Shown piece by piece: positions 1,006 to 16,352 of a stretch of 45,525 bases of DNA. Location of the stretch: contig WLJX01000010.1 in NCBI GenBank assembly GCA_009701575.1, positions 1 through 45,525 of the forward strand, written 5' to 3'. The DNA is from Actinomycetota bacterium (GTDB taxonomy: Bacteria; Actinomycetota; Actinomycetes; Nanopelagicales; Nanopelagicaceae). The stretch's first letter is position 1. Every line of letters starts with the position of its first letter. The notes under the pieces are model-generated. The model made no database searches and was not told the origin of the DNA. It worked only from the letters and a program-made list of their open reading frames with translations. Position numbers and translations under genes: made by a program.

Positions 1006-1686
1006 ATGGGCTTCTTTAATGACCTCTTTGGTAATCCAAAGGGAAAGAAAGCACAACGCGAAGTTGACCGCTTGCATGAAGAATGGTCCGAAGATGTCGC
1101 AACACTTGCAAAGTTAAAAGAGGCATTCATCGCCGTGCAAGATGGCGAGGACGCTGAAAGCCACAACATGATTACCAAGCAAGGTGAATATGTAATCTGG
1201 GCAGGCATTGGTCAATTTCACGAGGCTGGTCGCACCGCCGGACAATATGTTGGTTCAAGCCAGGGCTTTAGCATTCCGGTTGTTGCCGGCATTCGTTATC
1301 GAGTCGGCGCACAACGTGGAACTTTTATTCCCGGTGAAGAAATTCAAGTTTACAAAGACACAGGGCAGGTTTATTTAACGACCGATCGCCTAGTTTTTAA
1401 TGGCTTGACCAATACTGCTGAATGGAAATTCGATAAGTGGATAGGCGCTGGAGCAAGCCCCGACGGTGGCGATTTCATCTTCCATGTTTCTAATCGCAAA
1501 AAATCTTCTGGAATCTTATTTGAAAAAGATGTTGGCGAAGAGTTTAATCGTTTTCTTGCATTCGCTTTAATACATGTCTCTGATGGACTAGAGCGCGTAA
1601 TGAAGGAGATCAAAGGTTTAGAAGAGCGCATCCCAACTGAGGAACCTAAGTTGCAGAACCAAATCGAAGCGCCAAAAGCTAGTTAA
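1006..1686 (+). CDS. Hypothetical protein with PH-like (GRAM-type) domain
   Basis: 226 residues. An N-terminal charged helical stretch (about 12-45, 'KKAQREVDRLHEEWSED') suggests a short coiled coil. It is followed by a beta-rich region containing 'IPGEEIQVYKDTGQVYLTTDRLVFNG' and 'EWKFDKWIG', the alternating pattern of bacterial PH/GRAM-like domains. A C-terminal helix ('GLERVMKEIKGLEERIP') closes it. There is no signal peptide or membrane segment. It starts 15 nt after the SnoaL-like gene. A related pattern occurs in the protein at 14556-15200. The function is unknown; the domain call rests on pattern only. Confidence 0.65.
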   Translation: MGFFNDLFGNPKGKKAQREVDRLHEEWSEDVATLAKLKEAFIAVQDGEDAESHNMITKQGEYVIWAGIGQFHEAGRTAGQYVGSSQGFSIPVVAGIRYRVGAQRGTFIPGEEIQVYKDTGQVYLTTDRLVFNGLTNTAEWKFDKWIGAGASPDGGDFIFHVSNRKKSSGILFEKDVGEEFNRFLAFALIHVSDGLERVMKEIKGLEERIPTEEPKLQNQIEAPKAS

Positions 1687-1752
1687 GTAACTTAAAGTAG
1701 TTTGCGATTTCGTAATATTTTCTTACATTTCAAACTCACCTTGCTATAAGAT
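1685..1752 (+). promoter_or_regulatory. Conserved promoter region of cassette copy 1
   Basis: About 68 nt, directly after the upstream stop codon, align with 12748-12815 with few changes. Both begin AAGTAACT and share the TTTCAAACTCA block. A plausible promoter is TTACAT (1723-1728), 18 nt, then TAAGAT (1747-1752), giving a start near 1759. The second copy has ATACAT and TACGCT at the same spacing. Conservation of this non-coding stretch together with the RNA block below argues that it is functional. Confidence 0.55.
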
Positions 1753-1755
1753 TTC

Positions 1756-1853
1756 GCCAGATGGTCCGGGAATTTCTTCCCGAAGCCACCTACCCTTCGT
1801 TAGAGGGATTTTGGATTGCGGCCTACCTGTTCACGCTAGTAGGCCGATCGCCA
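1756..1853 (+). ncRNA. Putative structured RNA, cassette copy 1
   Basis: The block 1754-1811 differs from its second copy (12817-12874) at only two positions, both in a loop. Visible helices are CGGGAA/TTCCCG (1767-1772 with 1777-1782, TTTC loop) closed by TGG/CCA (1762-1764 with 1786-1788), then CCCT/AGGG (1793-1796 with 1804-1807), then the end hairpin GGCCTAC/GTAGGCC (1820-1826 with 1839-1845). No open reading frame explains the conservation. The end hairpin overlaps the stop codon of the minus-strand peptide gene, so the two transcripts would converge and overlap at their 3' ends. It does not match any riboswitch family that could be recalled. The plus orientation is inferred from the promoter; the hairpins would also form on the other strand. 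Confidence 0.55.
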
Positions 1854-1919
1854 TTTCATGATAGCTAGTATCAAGTTGGCGATGATTGCAATAAATGCAA
1901 TCCATTTTCCCTTTTCCAT
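1836..1919 (-). CDS. Tiny single-span membrane peptide, cassette copy 1
   Basis: 27 residues, start ATG at 1919 with a strong ribosome site (GGGAGG, 5 nt upstream). The peptide has a short charged head (MEKGK), a hydrophobic span of about 17 residues beginning WIAFIAIIANL, and a basic tail KWRSAY. The second copy at 12889-12984 encodes a homologue sharing the pattern G-x-W-I-A-x-x-A-I-x-A-N-L and KWR-x-A. Conservation at the protein level between two loci, each next to the same RNA block, supports real coding. Size, one membrane span and a basic end are what type I toxin peptides look like, but other small membrane proteins look the same. Not recognised as a named family. Confidence 0.65.
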   Translation of the reverse strand: MEKGKWIAFIAIIANLILAIMKWRSAY

Positions 1920-1930
1920 AACGTCCTCCC

Positions 1931-2005
1931 TTCTCGAAATCCTCTGCGATTAGCAGAGAAAGCAAGTGAGTGAACGCTGGCGGCGTGCTCAACTTGCTTC
2001 GAGAA
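1931..2005. other. Strongly foldable region with 16S rRNA-like core
   Basis: Nested pairings: outer arms TTCTCGAA (1931-1938) with TTCGAGAA (1998-2005), inner hairpin CTCTGC/GCAGAG (1942-1947 with 1953-1958), and a second inner stem AGCAAGTGAG (1961-1970) with CTCAACTTGCT (1988-1998, one bulge). The loop region contains TGAACGCTGGCGGCGTGCT (1971-1989), identical to the conserved 16S rRNA segment near E. coli positions 29-47 in its common actinobacterial form. On the minus strand this is the leader of the 27-residue peptide gene, and the outer stem ends just before that gene's ribosome site. Confidence 0.5.
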
Positions 2006-2129
2006 AGAAACGGGCAGGGTGAAAGTAACTAGATTGAACGTATGGCCTTTAGCTTGAGAAAAATAATGTGAATAATTTATTTCTGTGAATAAATATTGCC
2101 GAAACATAGACGCGGAAGACACGGCTAAT

Positions 2130-2141: not shown

Positions 2142-3827
2142 ATGAGAACCAAGCGGCTAACAATCAAGACTGTTGTTCTGGCTCTAGGATTTTCAATGAT
2201 TCCGCTAACAACAAGTTTGCAGAGTGCTTGGGCGTGCAGCGCTGCGCCCGGTGCCCCAATCGTGAAAACTATTTGGGGAACAACGGGCGGTCCATCATTC
2301 ACAGTCACACCAGCAAAGACTGACGAACTTCCAACCACTATTTATTATGCATATGCAGTTAAAAAAGTCAGCAAAGATTCTTGGGAGCCTTGGGCAGCCT
2401 GGGTGCCAACACAAGTTACTTCGGCAGGCGAAAGTGCAACATTTACAGCACCAATGGCAGAAGGAAACGATCTAATTACTTTTTCGGCCTACGCCTATAA
2501 CGTTTGTGGATCATCTGGTCAAAATCAGATTTATCGAAAACTGGTCACAAACGATTCACTGATGATTCCTAACTTAACTATCGCGGAAGATCTACCTTTG
2601 AGCGTTGGCACGATTCCAACTTATTTCTTTTCACCAATGGCATATGAGTTACCTCAGACTTTAACTTCTAAGAATCCAGCTATTTGTGCCTTTGATGAGA
2701 GCGCGAAAGTATTGAAACTTATATCAGCAGGGGAATGCGAAATTACAATCTCGCAGAACAATGAACTCCTTGCAACACCAAACCCAGATGTAACCCAAAC
2801 AATTAATATTCTTCCCACACCAAAGATTCTTCCGGTCACCGGGAAAGATCGCCCTGATGAAATAGATGGTTTCCAGATCCATGTGGTCTATGTGAAGGTT
2901 AACGGCACAACTCCTCATGAATACTATGAAAAGGGAGATGTTAATAACTGGCTTGATCTTGCCAATGCATGGATGAAGAGAAAACTAGGAAAAGAATTTA
3001 AATTTGACACTTTCGAAGGTACTTACGATATCTCGACGATGTTCTCTCAATACACGGCGGGTCAACTAGAAAAAGATGGAGCTAAATCTTCAGAGTCTTC
3101 ATCTAATACCCAGCCCACCCTATTTAAATTACAAAGCGAATTTAGTAAGCAAAATGGCTTAGAACTTATCGGTAAGAATTTGCTATTCATTATTGATGCG
3201 AATCTTTCTGAAAAATATTGTGGTTTTGCAAATCAACCTGGAATTTCTGCTCTCATCACGCCGGTAAGTTCCGGATGCTGGAGCCCTGAATTCGGTTATC
3301 TCGCCCAGACTCTTAAGTTGAATTATCCATCAAAAAGTCTAATTCACGAGTTAGTTCATAACTTAGGAGTAGGTCATCCTTGTGAGGATCTCTCTGACCT
3401 AATGATTGGCGGAACATGTGCGATGTCAAAGGAACAGACAGAAATAACTTTGGATTCCGCAAAGAAGTTATATATAGGAACTTCAAAAGCTGGCGCGAAT
3501 ATTCTTGATTTCAAGGTTTGGAAAGATGGCTCTGGTTCAAAATATCCGACTTCAAGAGGTTTGTGTTATGTAAATACTCCATGTTTAGTTTCAGACTGGT
3601 TTTGGAGAACACCCCAGGGCGATCTACAGATACAAGAGAAAATTGCTGGCAAATGGAAGACCCTTCAAACTTTCAAGATCAAAAAAATTGCAACAAATAA
3701 ATATGCCTTCAACGCTTCGATAATTCCAACTTCCAAGGGGATTCACACATACCGTGAATACATACCAGGCACCAAGAAATACGGCGCTTACACGGGCAGA
3801 CAAATCACAAAGACCGTCCCTTACTAA
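2142..3827 (+). CDS. Secreted zinc metalloprotease-like protein (HExxHxxGxxH)
   Basis: 561 residues. Residues 1-31 form a Sec signal peptide (basic head, hydrophobic core, AWA end). The motif HELVHNLGVGH at residues 402-412 is the zinc-binding signature of metzincin-type proteases, with H402, H406, H412 as ligands and E403 as the general base. Cysteines at the flanks ('HPCEDLSDLM', 'GGTCAM') suggest disulphides in an exported protein. The N-terminal 250 residues look like beta-sandwich (Ig-like) modules. A stretch beginning 'IHVVYVKVNGTTPHEYYEKG' opens the protease domain. The C-terminal 110 residues resemble another beta domain. It probably digests extracellular protein or peptide; the substrate is unknown. 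It starts leaderless from TAACAT at 2130. Confidence 0.75.
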   Translation: MRTKRLTIKTVVLALGFSMIPLTTSLQSAWACSAAPGAPIVKTIWGTTGGPSFTVTPAKTDELPTTIYYAYAVKKVSKDSWEPWAAWVPTQVTSAGESATFTAPMAEGNDLITFSAYAYNVCGSSGQNQIYRKLVTNDSLMIPNLTIAEDLPLSVGTIPTYFFSPMAYELPQTLTSKNPAICAFDESAKVLKLISAGECEITISQNNELLATPNPDVTQTINILPTPKILPVTGKDRPDEIDGFQIHVVYVKVNGTTPHEYYEKGDVNNWLDLANAWMKRKLGKEFKFDTFEGTYDISTMFSQYTAGQLEKDGAKSSESSSNTQPTLFKLQSEFSKQNGLELIGKNLLFIIDANLSEKYCGFANQPGISALITPVSSGCWSPEFGYLAQTLKLNYPSKSLIHELVHNLGVGHPCEDLSDLMIGGTCAMSKEQTEITLDSAKKLYIGTSKAGANILDFKVWKDGSGSKYPTSRGLCYVNTPCLVSDWFWRTPQGDLQIQEKIAGKWKTLQTFKIKKIATNKYAFNASIIPTSKGIHTYREYIPGTKKYGAYTGRQITKTVPY

Positions 3828-7918: not shown

Positions 7919-8998
7919 TTACATCAGCGCTTTCTTTAAAGCAGCAATCACTAATTTAACTTCGCCCTTCTTCAACATGTCAGGGCTAATGAAGAGCGGA
8001 CCATCTAAGTCCAGAACAACTGCTGGGTTTTGAGCTAAAAGGTTTTCATAAACTCTATTTGCGGTCTCACTTGGCAACTTTGCGTCGAATTTAATCTCCA
8101 CACGTGGAATTGGTTGTCCAGCTTGATTGAATTCGTGAATTACTCCAGATAGGCCAGAAATCTTAGAAAGTTTTGCTGAAATCTTCTCGCAACTCTTCTG
8201 CCACATCCTTAAATCTTTCTCATGATCGCGCTCAAGATAATTCTCAATTGCTTGGGTTATTCCAAAGATTTCTTCTTTTCCTACTTTAAATGCGCGAGCA
8301 ATTCCTTGGTTAGGTGCTGCAAGCTTTGCCGCGGCTTCAATTATTCGAGAACTCCCAAGCATTAGACCTGTTGATTGCGGTCCGCATAAAGCTTTTCCAC
8401 CACTAAACAAAACAAGATCGGCGCCTGCTTTAACGGTAAAGAATGAAAGATTAGAAACTGGAGGCAATTGCGCCGCCGCATCAACAATTACTGAGATGCC
8501 GCGCTTCTTTGCGATTCGCACTGTAGTTTCAATACTCAACGCATTATCTCCGACATATTTGCCAGCAATCCAGAAGATCGCCAAGGTCTTATCTGAAATC
8601 GCGCTCTCTAAATCAGCTTCGCTGCGCTTTCCAGCCCCACCGAATTCAACTAACTTCTTTCCGGCAAAAGTTACTGCCTTGTCATAAGGAATTCTGTGGC
8701 TTACATCGATTAGTACCTCTGTGCGCTCTTTGCTTTCATCAAGTTCACCGAGAGCCAGCGCTGTTAAAACTATCGCTGATGCACAACCTGGAGTTATATA
8801 AGCCGCTTCATTTCCAGTTAAAGCGGCAATCCGCTTGCCACTTGCGGCCAATAATTGGTACATATCCGTAAATGATTTAGCACCACGGGCCATCGCATCA
8901 ATTACCGTGGGATCCATCAACGATCCGCCTATGCGGGTATATGTCGTCGAGGCATTAATAATTCGCTTAACACCAAGAGATTTATGAGTAATCTTCAC
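7919..8998 (-). CDS. SelA-like PLP-dependent enzyme
   Basis: 359 residues, start GTG 8998 with an AGGGG site just upstream. The fold pattern is that of the SelA/DgaE group of fold-type I PLP enzymes. 'INASTTYTRIGGSLMDPTVIDAM' near the N-terminus resembles the 'N..GT..GGS' opening of that group, D173 ('VIVDAAAQLPP') would contact the pyridine nitrogen, and K202 in 'FSGGKALCGPQSTG' would be the Schiff-base lysine. Family members include selenocysteine synthase and D-glucosaminate-6-phosphate ammonia-lyase. The neighbours are sugar-acid genes and no selenium genes are present, so a lyase or dehydratase on a sugar-acid derivative is more likely. It is the last gene of the minus-strand set that begins at 11772. 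Confidence 0.75.
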   Translation of the reverse strand: MKITHKSLGVKRIINASTTYTRIGGSLMDPTVIDAMARGAKSFTDMYQLLAASGKRIAALTGNEAAYITPGCASAIVLTALALGELDESKERTEVLIDVSHRIPYDKAVTFAGKKLVEFGGAGKRSEADLESAISDKTLAIFWIAGKYVGDNALSIETTVRIAKKRGISVIVDAAAQLPPVSNLSFFTVKAGADLVLFSGGKALCGPQSTGLMLGSSRIIEAAAKLAAPNQGIARAFKVGKEEIFGITQAIENYLERDHEKDLRMWQKSCEKISAKLSKISGLSGVIHEFNQAGQPIPRVEIKFDAKLPSETANRVYENLLAQNPAVVLDLDGPLFISPDMLKKGEVKLVIAALKKALM

Positions 8999-12747: not shown

Positions 12748-12815
12748 AAGTAACTCAAAGTAGTTTTCAATTTCGCAATATTTCCATACATTTCAAACTC
12801 AACTTGCTATACGCT
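12748..12815 (+). promoter_or_regulatory. Conserved promoter region of cassette copy 2
   Basis: Aligns with 1685-1752 and starts 4 nt after the lactonase stop codon. The proposed -35 ATACAT (12786-12791) and -10 TACGCT (12810-12815) keep the 18-nt spacing of copy 1 and predict a start near 12822. Confidence 0.55.
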
Positions 12816-12818
12816 TTC

Positions 12819-12921
12819 GCCAGATGGTCCGGGAATTTCTTCCCGAAGCCACCTACCCTTTGTCAGAGGGATTTATGGTGATTGTGGCTCACTCGTCTTT
12901 TGGGTGAGCCTTTCGCCATTT
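12819..12921 (+). ncRNA. Putative structured RNA, cassette copy 2
   Basis: The same 58-nt block as copy 1, with the CGGGAA/TTCCCG stem and the CCCT/AGGG stem; the only two differences in this block fall in the loop of the second stem. The following sequence diverges, but the end hairpin is kept as GGCTCAC (12886-12892) with GTGAGCC (12904-12910), followed by TTTCGCCATTT. Relative to copy 1 two base pairs are exchanged with compensation (C-G to T-A and T-A to C-G), which supports a real RNA helix. The hairpin overlaps the stop codon of the convergent peptide gene. Confidence 0.55.
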
Positions 12922-12984
12922 AATAATCGAAATCATTAAATTAGCGAATATCGCCAACAAGGCGATCCAGTTTCCATAATCCAT
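12889..12984 (-). CDS. Tiny single-span membrane peptide, cassette copy 2
   Basis: 31 residues, ATG 12984 with AAGGAT about 5 nt upstream. It opens MDYGNWIALLAIFANL, has one hydrophobic span, and ends in the charged tail KWRKAHPKDE. It is a homologue of the 27-residue peptide at 1836-1919: G4, W6, I7, A8, A11, I12, A14, N15, L16 and KWR are kept. Its start lies only 32 bp from the start of the divergent DUF167 gene, so its promoter must lie in or next to that gene. Function is not known; a type I toxin-like role is an inference from the arrangement. Confidence 0.6.
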   Translation of the reverse strand: MDYGNWIALLAIFANLMISIIKWRKAHPKDE

Positions 12985-13016
12985 AACATCCTTAAGCAAT
13001 TGATTTACACTCAATC

Positions 13017-15201: not shown

Positions 15202-15726
15202 CTATTCGTAAGAGTAATTACAGAACCTACATTTCTTTGCCGCAACCTTAATAGTCTCAGCACAGTCAGGACAAACTTTGGTCTCTTCTGGAGAATCTTC
15301 TAAATCACTTTCAATCGCAGCAGGAAATACAGCTTCAAGTGATTCACTTTCAGATTTAACCCTAGCTTTCTCAGCATTCGCTACGGCGTCAGCCATTTCA
15401 ATATTATTAAAAACAAAGCGAGCAACATCCGAGACATAGGTCATTATATTTAACGTATTTGGATTGTCGGCGGCAATTCTACGACCTATGCCTTGCGCAG
15501 TTACAAATTGTTCTGGACGTTCAAGAAGAATAGCTCGGTCACATTTCTGACAGACAAGAAAATGTTTTGCTTTATATTTTGCGATTCTTATTCCATAAAC
15601 TTGTCCGTATTTATAATTCTCAGTCACAGCGAAGGCAGAGAACCCGTCGCATATTGAGCAGTAGTAAGGAACCCAGAGCCCATCGTAGTTCTTAGACTTT
15701 GAACCCATTCCCCAGAAAATAGCCAT
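15202..15726 (-). CDS. Zinc-ribbon protein, hypothetical
   Basis: 174 residues from ATG 15726, preceded by GGAGG; longer in-frame starts are unlikely. There are three metal-binding cysteine pairs: 'YYCSICDG' near the N-terminus, 'LVCQKCDRA' in the middle and the C-terminal ribbon 'VCPDCAETIKVAAKKCRFCN', which is the common zinc-ribbon tail of many bacterial membrane or regulatory proteins. The linker is acidic ('ESDLEDSPEETK'). There is no membrane segment. The function is unknown, with a binding or adaptor role possible. Confidence 0.6.
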   Translation of the reverse strand: MAIFWGMGSKSKNYDGLWVPYYCSICDGFSAFAVTENYKYGQVYGIRIAKYKAKHFLVCQKCDRAILLERPEQFVTAQGIGRRIAADNPNTLNIMTYVSDVARFVFNNIEMADAVANAEKARVKSESESLEAVFPAAIESDLEDSPEETKVCPDCAETIKVAAKKCRFCNYSYE

Positions 15727-15866
15727 TCCGCCTCCAAGCACTTTTCCTCGGAATATTTTAGCTATGGATTGCACAAATACAATGCAAATTGATCATTCAA
15801 AACGGAGTTGGTCAAAAAATCACCGACCCATTGCGCTCTTACTATCTACGTGCTTAGACTTAAGGT

Positions 15867-16352
15867 ATGCGAGGTCGTGCTCTTGGAATCGGTGTAATAG
15901 TTGTCATAGCTTTATTAATCAGTCACTTTACAAGCGCGGGAAGAGATGACTCAGGCGAGATAACTAAGTCTGGTGATGTAAGTGCGTCAGAAGTGCAGGT
16001 TGGAGATTGTTTTGATGATTTACCGCAACTTAGTACAGAAGGTAGCACTTTTTCATCAGTACATGCAGTCCCCTGCAACGAGGGTCACCACTGGCAGGCA
16101 TTTCATCAGGAAGGTTCTTCATTAGAGTCTTATTCTGAAACGGATATTAAATCTGAAGCAGGTGCAATATGTAACTCGGTAGCGCAAACATTGATTAACA
16201 ACATGTCACCAATTAAGTATGATGCATTTCAAAATGTGCAACTAACGTATTTTGCTCCAACTTATAAATCCTGGTCTACTCATGGAGACCGTTTGGTCCA
16301 GTGCTTAATTGGAAGTGATACGGAATCATATTTCACTTCAGTTCTCGAATGA
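15867..16352 (+). CDS. Membrane-anchored septum-formation-like domain protein
   Basis: 161 residues. One N-terminal span ('LGIGVIVVIALLISHF') anchors the protein with its C-terminus outside. 'VQVGDCFDDL', 'VHAVPCNEGHHWQAFHQEG' and a late 'RLVQCLIGS' match the pattern of the actinobacterial septum-formation domain (paired Cys with a 'V.C...H..E'-type core), though the name of that family says little about function. TAGACT (15855-15860) lies 6 nt before the ATG, indicating a leaderless transcript. Confidence 0.55.
   Translation: MRGRALGIGVIVVIALLISHFTSAGRDDSGEITKSGDVSASEVQVGDCFDDLPQLSTEGSTFSSVHAVPCNEGHHWQAFHQEGSSLESYSETDIKSEAGAICNSVAQTLINNMSPIKYDAFQNVQLTYFAPTYKSWSTHGDRLVQCLIGSDTESYFTSVLE

Follow-up and report, generated by a model that had tools for sequence, protein, structure and literature searches.

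A candidate type I toxin-antitoxin-like module with a DnaA box at its putative peptide promoter in lake Actinobacteria

We analysed a 45,525-nt stretch of an actinobacterial genome assembly (contig WLJX01000010.1; hereafter, the window) and found that it contains two copies of an intergenic unit that probably represents a module resembling type I toxin-antitoxin systems, with a DnaA box placed at the putative toxin promoter. A sequence-only reading of the window had described two cassettes with minus-strand ORFs for peptides of 27 and 31 residues. Both lay where it had placed them and were 78% identical over ~235 bp. As the unit recurs in genomes of the same genus and family, its arrangement is far beyond chance. 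Comparison of these copies shows the module itself, a leader predicted to sequester the Shine–Dalgarno sequence, conservation of the peptide, the placement of the DnaA box and opposite strand preferences of two hairpins, hp1 and hp3. The assembled host genome (79% complete) contained only the two module copies. The features in the window, with the evidence for them in brackets, were as follows.

2084..2092, minus strand: distal DnaA box TTATTCACA, at -75 from the leader start
2067..2075, minus strand: proximal DnaA box TTATTCACA, kept in all intact copies, at -58 from the leader start
2022..2027, minus strand: predicted -10 box TACTTT of the peptide mRNA, TAnnTT in homologues (sequence comparison)
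1917..2017, minus strand: conserved structured 5' leader of ~100 nt, a three-way junction whose 5' strand pairs the Shine–Dalgarno sequence (covariation; models R1/R3)
1924..1931, minus strand: Shine–Dalgarno sequence AGGGAGGA, paired with the 5' end of the leader (leader structure and covariation)
1836..1919, minus strand: 27-aa single-span membrane peptide MEKGKWIAFIAIIANLILAIMKWRSAY (ORF, alignment, pN/pS)
1820..1845, plus strand: hp3, a hairpin that overlaps the peptide gene's end, in most copies stabler as antisense; probable 3' end of the antisense RNA (strand test)
1793..1807, plus strand: hp2, a short hairpin with a weak plus-strand preference (strand test)
1758..1792, minus strand: hp1, AGGUGG..CCAUCU with a GAAA loop, stabler as peptide mRNA; probable 3' end of the mRNA (strand test)
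1742..1750, plus strand: putative antisense-RNA promoter, the extended -10-like motif TGC-TATAAG (sequence; position of the motif in homologues)
1687..1741, plus strand: conserved outer block GTAACYYAAAGTAGTTT..., the end of the element, directly after the stop codon of the 226-aa gene (comparison; empty sites elsewhere)
12889..12984, minus strand: copy 2 peptide, a 31-aa homologue MDYGNWIALLAIFANLMISIIKWRKAHPKDE (ORF, comparison)
12748..12992: copy 2 element, with hp1 (12821-12855, minus strand), hp2 (12856-12870), hp3 (12886-12910, plus strand) and the peptide

Copy 1 extends over ~1687-2092, from the stop codon of a gene for 226 aa (1686) to the DnaA boxes (2067-2092). On the minus strand, its order is two DnaA boxes, -10 box, three-way-junction leader, 27-aa peptide and hairpins. 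The conserved unit is longer than the limits of 1685-1919 drawn for the cassette by the sequence-only reading, which had overlooked the ~100-nt leader and the DnaA boxes. Copy 2, previously taken for the equivalent of copy 1, proved to be 5'-truncated: the Shine–Dalgarno sequence and peptide are kept, the leader, promoter and DnaA box are gone, and the leader model gave no match. A Shine–Dalgarno sequence of good quality precedes the peptide ORF in each copy. The start of the element just after a stop codon was true of these insertion sites but is not a general trait, as other copies sit elsewhere. In the 39-aa group (for example, L079 and L116), the outer motif GTAACYYAAAGTAGTTT (1687-1705 in the window) was found inverted (GAAACTACTCCGAGTAACG) at the same end of the element.

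The structure of the leader was modelled as a consensus three-way junction from thirteen near copies. Covariation was assessed in 25 sequences (23 distinct) from the near, 39-aa and 37-aa groups plus L091. In this alignment, 96.3% of cells paired and 15 pairs showed compensatory change on both sides. Compensatory cells numbered 62, compared to 17.7 in shuffles and at most eight in slid controls. The alignment was fitted to the model and is thereby biased towards structure; despite this, an effect so large, set against so few compensatory cells in the slid controls, makes an artefact unlikely. The Shine–Dalgarno sequence was inside the closing stem in all groups, with the 5' strand being CCCGUUUCUUUCU in near copies and GCCUGAAUUCCUU in far ones. 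Since this strand pairs the Shine–Dalgarno sequence, the nascent mRNA should be translationally closed. A translation block by intrinsic structure is a common but not universal trait of type I systems, and the computed position of the Shine–Dalgarno sequence in a covarying leader stem suggests one here.

Complementarity between the leader loop and the 3' part of the module differed between groups. The loop of the 38-aa group (L122, L123), GCCGCCAG, is perfectly complementary to CUGGCGGC, located 7 nt after the stop codon. A perfect 8-nt match was seen in this group only, and matches elsewhere were weak: near copies showed a shorter complementarity (CGCCAG/CUGGCG), and the 39-aa group none. Long-distance 5'–3' pairing of the leader loop with the region behind the stop codon is possible.

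We examined on which strand the hairpins are likely to act by a strand test. Because each G-U pair of one strand becomes an A-C mismatch in the complement, the strand of a conserved hairpin can be told from its pairing. Hairpin hp1 was stabler as peptide-strand RNA in all 20 distinct sequences (13 of 13 far, seven of seven near), with energies, sense versus antisense, of -20.7 versus -14.1 kcal/mol in far copies and -20.0 versus -14.2 kcal/mol in near copies, where the GNRA loop of hp1 is on the peptide strand. Hairpin hp3 was stabler as antisense RNA in 21 of 25 sequences (14/16 far, 7/9 near), which is weaker evidence because hp3 overlaps codons and its strand bias may in part reflect codon choice. 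Of the three plus-strand hairpins proposed from the window sequence, hp3 favoured that strand in most sequences, but the biggest, hp1, belongs to the minus strand. The opposite preferences of hp1 and hp3 support two convergent, 3'-overlapping RNAs, as the sequence-only reading had proposed. On the simplest reading, hp1 would mark the approximate end of the mRNA and hp3 that of the antisense RNA, most of which would lie in the overlap. An extended -10-like motif precedes hp1 directly on the antisense strand (TGC-TATACG in near copies, TGC-TTTAAT in the 39-aa group); it and the -10 box upstream of the leader are the putative promoters of the antisense RNA and the peptide mRNA. A clean U-run terminator was found on neither side, except for the mRNA terminator of the 37-aa group in genus g12. 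Trans pairing of the predicted antisense RNA with the leader was no better than in shuffles by a crude long-duplex method, so that regulation is supported by the 3' overlap only. A group II intron was considered for the GAAA hairpin, which resembles domain V, and was rejected: there was no Rfam match, and the bulge pattern did not match.

The peptides of all groups (n = 24) could be aligned with at most one internal gap, and most shared an A-x-A-N-L core. They are 27–39 aa long with one hydrophobic span, and the best 17-residue window scored 1.4–2.5 on the Kyte–Doolittle scale in all peptides but one. This is in line with type I toxins, which are usually small hydrophobic peptides of <60 aa with one helix. 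Synonymous differences exceeded nonsynonymous ones in most groups (pN/pS 0.20–0.62). The small single-span peptide noticed in the window was in this way borne out as a peptide under purifying selection, with the 27-aa group itself, represented by three sequences, showing no measurable selection and being uninformative. None of the 24 peptides came near any cut-off in Pfam and NCBIfam, including those of the TxpA, Fst, Ldr, Ibs, TisB and Hok families, and no PHROGs family fitted them. Together with the Rfam search described below, this agrees with the earlier impression that no named family fits.

The region upstream of the leader contained only two conserved motifs, TTWTNCACA and the -10 box. 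The first corresponds to TTATCCACA, the classical DnaA box consensus (PMC8203912). All 28 intact modules of the near, 38-aa and 39-aa groups with upstream sequence had an NTWTNCACA box 55–58 nt ahead of the leader, placing a TTATCCACA-like box, as expected for DnaA-regulated genes, at the putative promoter of each. The exact TTWTNCACA was present in 18 of the 28, and the remaining 10 deviated in the first base only. Columns flanking the box were near random; as the columns were aligned on CACA, independent evidence comes from the TWT part only. Copy 1 possesses two boxes 17 bp apart, and two of the five exact TTWTNCACA occurrences in the 45.5-kb window are at this copy. In four genomes of the family, dnaA is flanked by clusters of TTATCCACA boxes, identifying the box in the module as the DnaA box native to the host. 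The three 37-aa copies of g12 and L091 had boxes at other distances or degenerate ones only. Control of the toxin promoter by DnaA may be the role of this arrangement.

Next, we assessed the distribution of the module. The host family, most likely Candidatus Nanopelagicaceae, is the only one in its order and has small genomes with a GC content of 0.44. Block and peptide, sought in related genomes, were indeed present there: DNA search detected the unit in nine of 27 genomes of the genus, with at most five matches per genome, and in two further genera of the family. A leader covariance model identified divergent relatives in other genera; in each one that was read, the leader was followed by a Shine–Dalgarno sequence and then a tiny hydrophobic ORF. 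The improved model R3 matched 27 of 296 family genomes, in four of 17 genera. Outside the host family, R3 yielded no leader match in a 395-genome sample of the class, and searches of phages, plasmids and IMG/VR yielded no match to the module. An exact-pattern scan of 84,980 genomes gave matches in just 13 contigs, all but one titled as actinobacterial metagenome-assembled genomes (MAGs). The exception, L047 (CAMCPZ010000052.1), is titled Bifidobacterium breve and carries the module with the same neighbour genes as in lake actinobacteria; given these genes, the title is probably wrong (a misnamed MAG). At L104 (G230:C62:562-661), the core model for hp1 matched weakly (E 0.0036), with no leader match. 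Integron attC sites were rejected as an explanation, as the distance from one copy to the next ranges from ~130 bp to kilobases and is filled by ordinary stretches of several genes, and as the unit itself includes a promoter and a gene that are conserved.

The fate of individual copies varied. The 24 core matches in the near group comprised 13 with a leader, nine without and two cut at contig ends, and all near-group leaders were accompanied by a core. Loss was one-sided: nine copies, copy 2 of the window among them, retained the antisense-RNA side with no leader, and none had the leader and peptide with no antisense side. A toxin–antitoxin pair would be expected to decay in this way, losing the toxin half first and keeping the antisense half; 5' truncation during copying would look alike. 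Two 5'-truncated copies, in G286 and G288 (L057 ~15630-15874; L059 ~8325-8564) adjoin pseudo-tRNA fragments and have a common terminator flank, GACCCCGTCA..TGACGGGGTC, as if copied jointly. The g12 copies (L082, L084, L088) encode 37 aa starting with MDIHSW.., lack the inner leader arm and any recognisable antisense side, and end in a strong intrinsic terminator directly after the peptide. At the window site, the module follows the 226-aa gene in six genomes, and the same gene occurs with no module in five. The next gene varies among the six (561-aa, 298-aa or other; window 1006-1686, 2142-3827), which gives this region the appearance of a recombination hotspot.

Membrane peptide, closed mRNA, convergent antisense RNA, patchy multi-copy occurrence and one-sided decay together match the type I design. 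In the mechanism we propose, an mRNA for a membrane peptide of 27–39 aa would be transcribed from a promoter that has a DnaA box at constant spacing. This mRNA would be born shut, its 5' end pairing the Shine–Dalgarno sequence in the three-way-junction leader. From the opposite side, the extended -10 promoter would produce an antisense RNA of ~90–120 nt. This RNA would cover the 3' portion of the mRNA and stop at hp3, within the last part of the peptide gene, with the mRNA itself ending at hp1. We infer that the two RNAs would form a duplex through their overlap and be degraded, as happens in TxpA/RatA or BsrG/SR4. Opening of the leader, or transcription outrunning the antisense RNA, would allow the peptide to be made, which presumably harms or slows the cell via its membrane. 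DnaA would set the timing or strength of the toxin promoter, linking the module to replication.

Alternatively, the peptide could be a DnaA-controlled regulator and no toxin, acting on a membrane checkpoint of replication or division, with the leader and antisense RNA tuning dose only. Division machinery can be inhibited by single-span peptides. The constant position of the DnaA box across all intact modules of the near, 38-aa and 39-aa groups would suit such a role, and the logic would be comparable to that of Sda in Bacillus subtilis, a small inhibitor whose gene is directly regulated by DnaA (PMC8203912). We nevertheless consider a checkpoint peptide unlikely, as patchy presence, clustered multiple copies and frequent loss of promoter and start are unlike a core checkpoint, and Shine–Dalgarno sequestration with a convergent antisense RNA is a usual design for toxins.

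Two further explanations appeared less probable still. The unit may be a selfish repeat with RNA structures that help to copy it (through reverse transcription or a similar process), leaving 5' truncations with constant 3' ends and an incidental peptide. Many copies do have a common hp1 end with the other side broken at different points, and presence and absence between conserved genes is precise. However, a non-systematic look revealed no target duplication and no linked transposase or reverse transcriptase, the peptide is under purifying selection, and one site has an intact module in L061 and L062 versus a 5'-deleted copy in G020 (L056), which fits decay in place; this makes a selfish repeat improbable. 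Slightly more doubtful yet is a riboswitch-like cis-regulatory leader of a small membrane protein, in which the loop ACGCCGCCAGCGT would sense a ligand and open the Shine–Dalgarno sequence. The leader is the best-conserved RNA of the module, and this loop is nearly invariant in all groups but one. That one, the 37-aa group of g12, lacks the loop arm wholly, yet keeps the closing stem and the peptide. Moreover, the leader precedes one kind of gene only, and no Rfam model reached its gathering score anywhere in the window, with loose thresholds giving only chance-level matches over the module.

The type I-like reading, which we prefer, was compared with known systems. Membrane type I toxins are generally hydrophobic, <60 aa, with one helix and a cationic end (PMC8309996). 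TxpA/RatA, BsrG/SR4 and BsrE/SR5 of Bacillus resemble the module in having a small hydrophobic peptide, a convergent 3'-overlapping antisense RNA and a sequestered ribosome-binding site; the TxpA, BsrE and BsrG mRNAs sequester this site, and their base pairing with the antitoxins extends over long complementary regions (PMC6562991). They differ in belonging to another phylum and showing no sequence match, whereas the module adds a DnaA box at the toxin promoter and a large three-way-junction leader pairing the Shine–Dalgarno sequence with the mRNA 5' end. TisB/IstR-1 and DinQ/AgrB of Escherichia coli also combine a membrane peptide of ~30 aa with a structured, translation-blocking 5' UTR and a toxin promoter wired to a regulator of DNA metabolism, LexA in their case (PMC5668327). 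The module has no sequence match to them; in place of the LexA box and divergent antitoxin gene that mark TisB/IstR-1, it has a DnaA box and a convergent antitoxin. Fst/RNAII (Par) likewise has a convergent peptide gene and antisense RNA with a small membrane toxin, but there was no Pfam Fst match, and no antisense pairing at the ribosome site was found in the module. The earlier assignment to a TxpA/RatA- or Fst-like type I design thus held for arrangement and multi-copy state but not for membership of the TxpA or Fst families, as profile tests were negative. Sib/Ibs (QUAD repeats) is, like the module, a repeated intergenic unit with a tiny hydrophobic peptide and an antisense RNA; the overlap in the module is at the 3' side and not over the whole ORF, and there is no sequence match. 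MsoT1/MsoA1 of Microcystis, a proposed type I system outside the three classical phyla (PMC12390103), is cyanobacterial, unrelated and was tested in E. coli, whereas the module is known from sequence alone. Judged by its sequence, the module is in no known type I family, and its unusual part is the DnaA box.

According to a paper from 2025, the phyla with known type I systems were limited to Proteobacteria, Firmicutes and Tenericutes until it added a case from cyanobacteria (PMC12390103), and our literature searches found no actinobacterial one. It is quite possible, though we hold it with less confidence than the type I-like reading itself, that the module represents the first type I family of Actinobacteria and the first with a DnaA-controlled toxin promoter, releasing its peptide upon changes in replication initiation or DnaA activity in streamlined lake bacteria. 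The leader and core models ease the finding of further copies. If the proposal is true, the module would add Actinobacteria to the phyla with type I systems, in an abundant freshwater lineage whose genomes of ~1.2–1.5 Mb make extra modules unexpected, and the DnaA box, as the only conserved upstream site, would tie a membrane peptide to the control of replication in a way open to direct testing.
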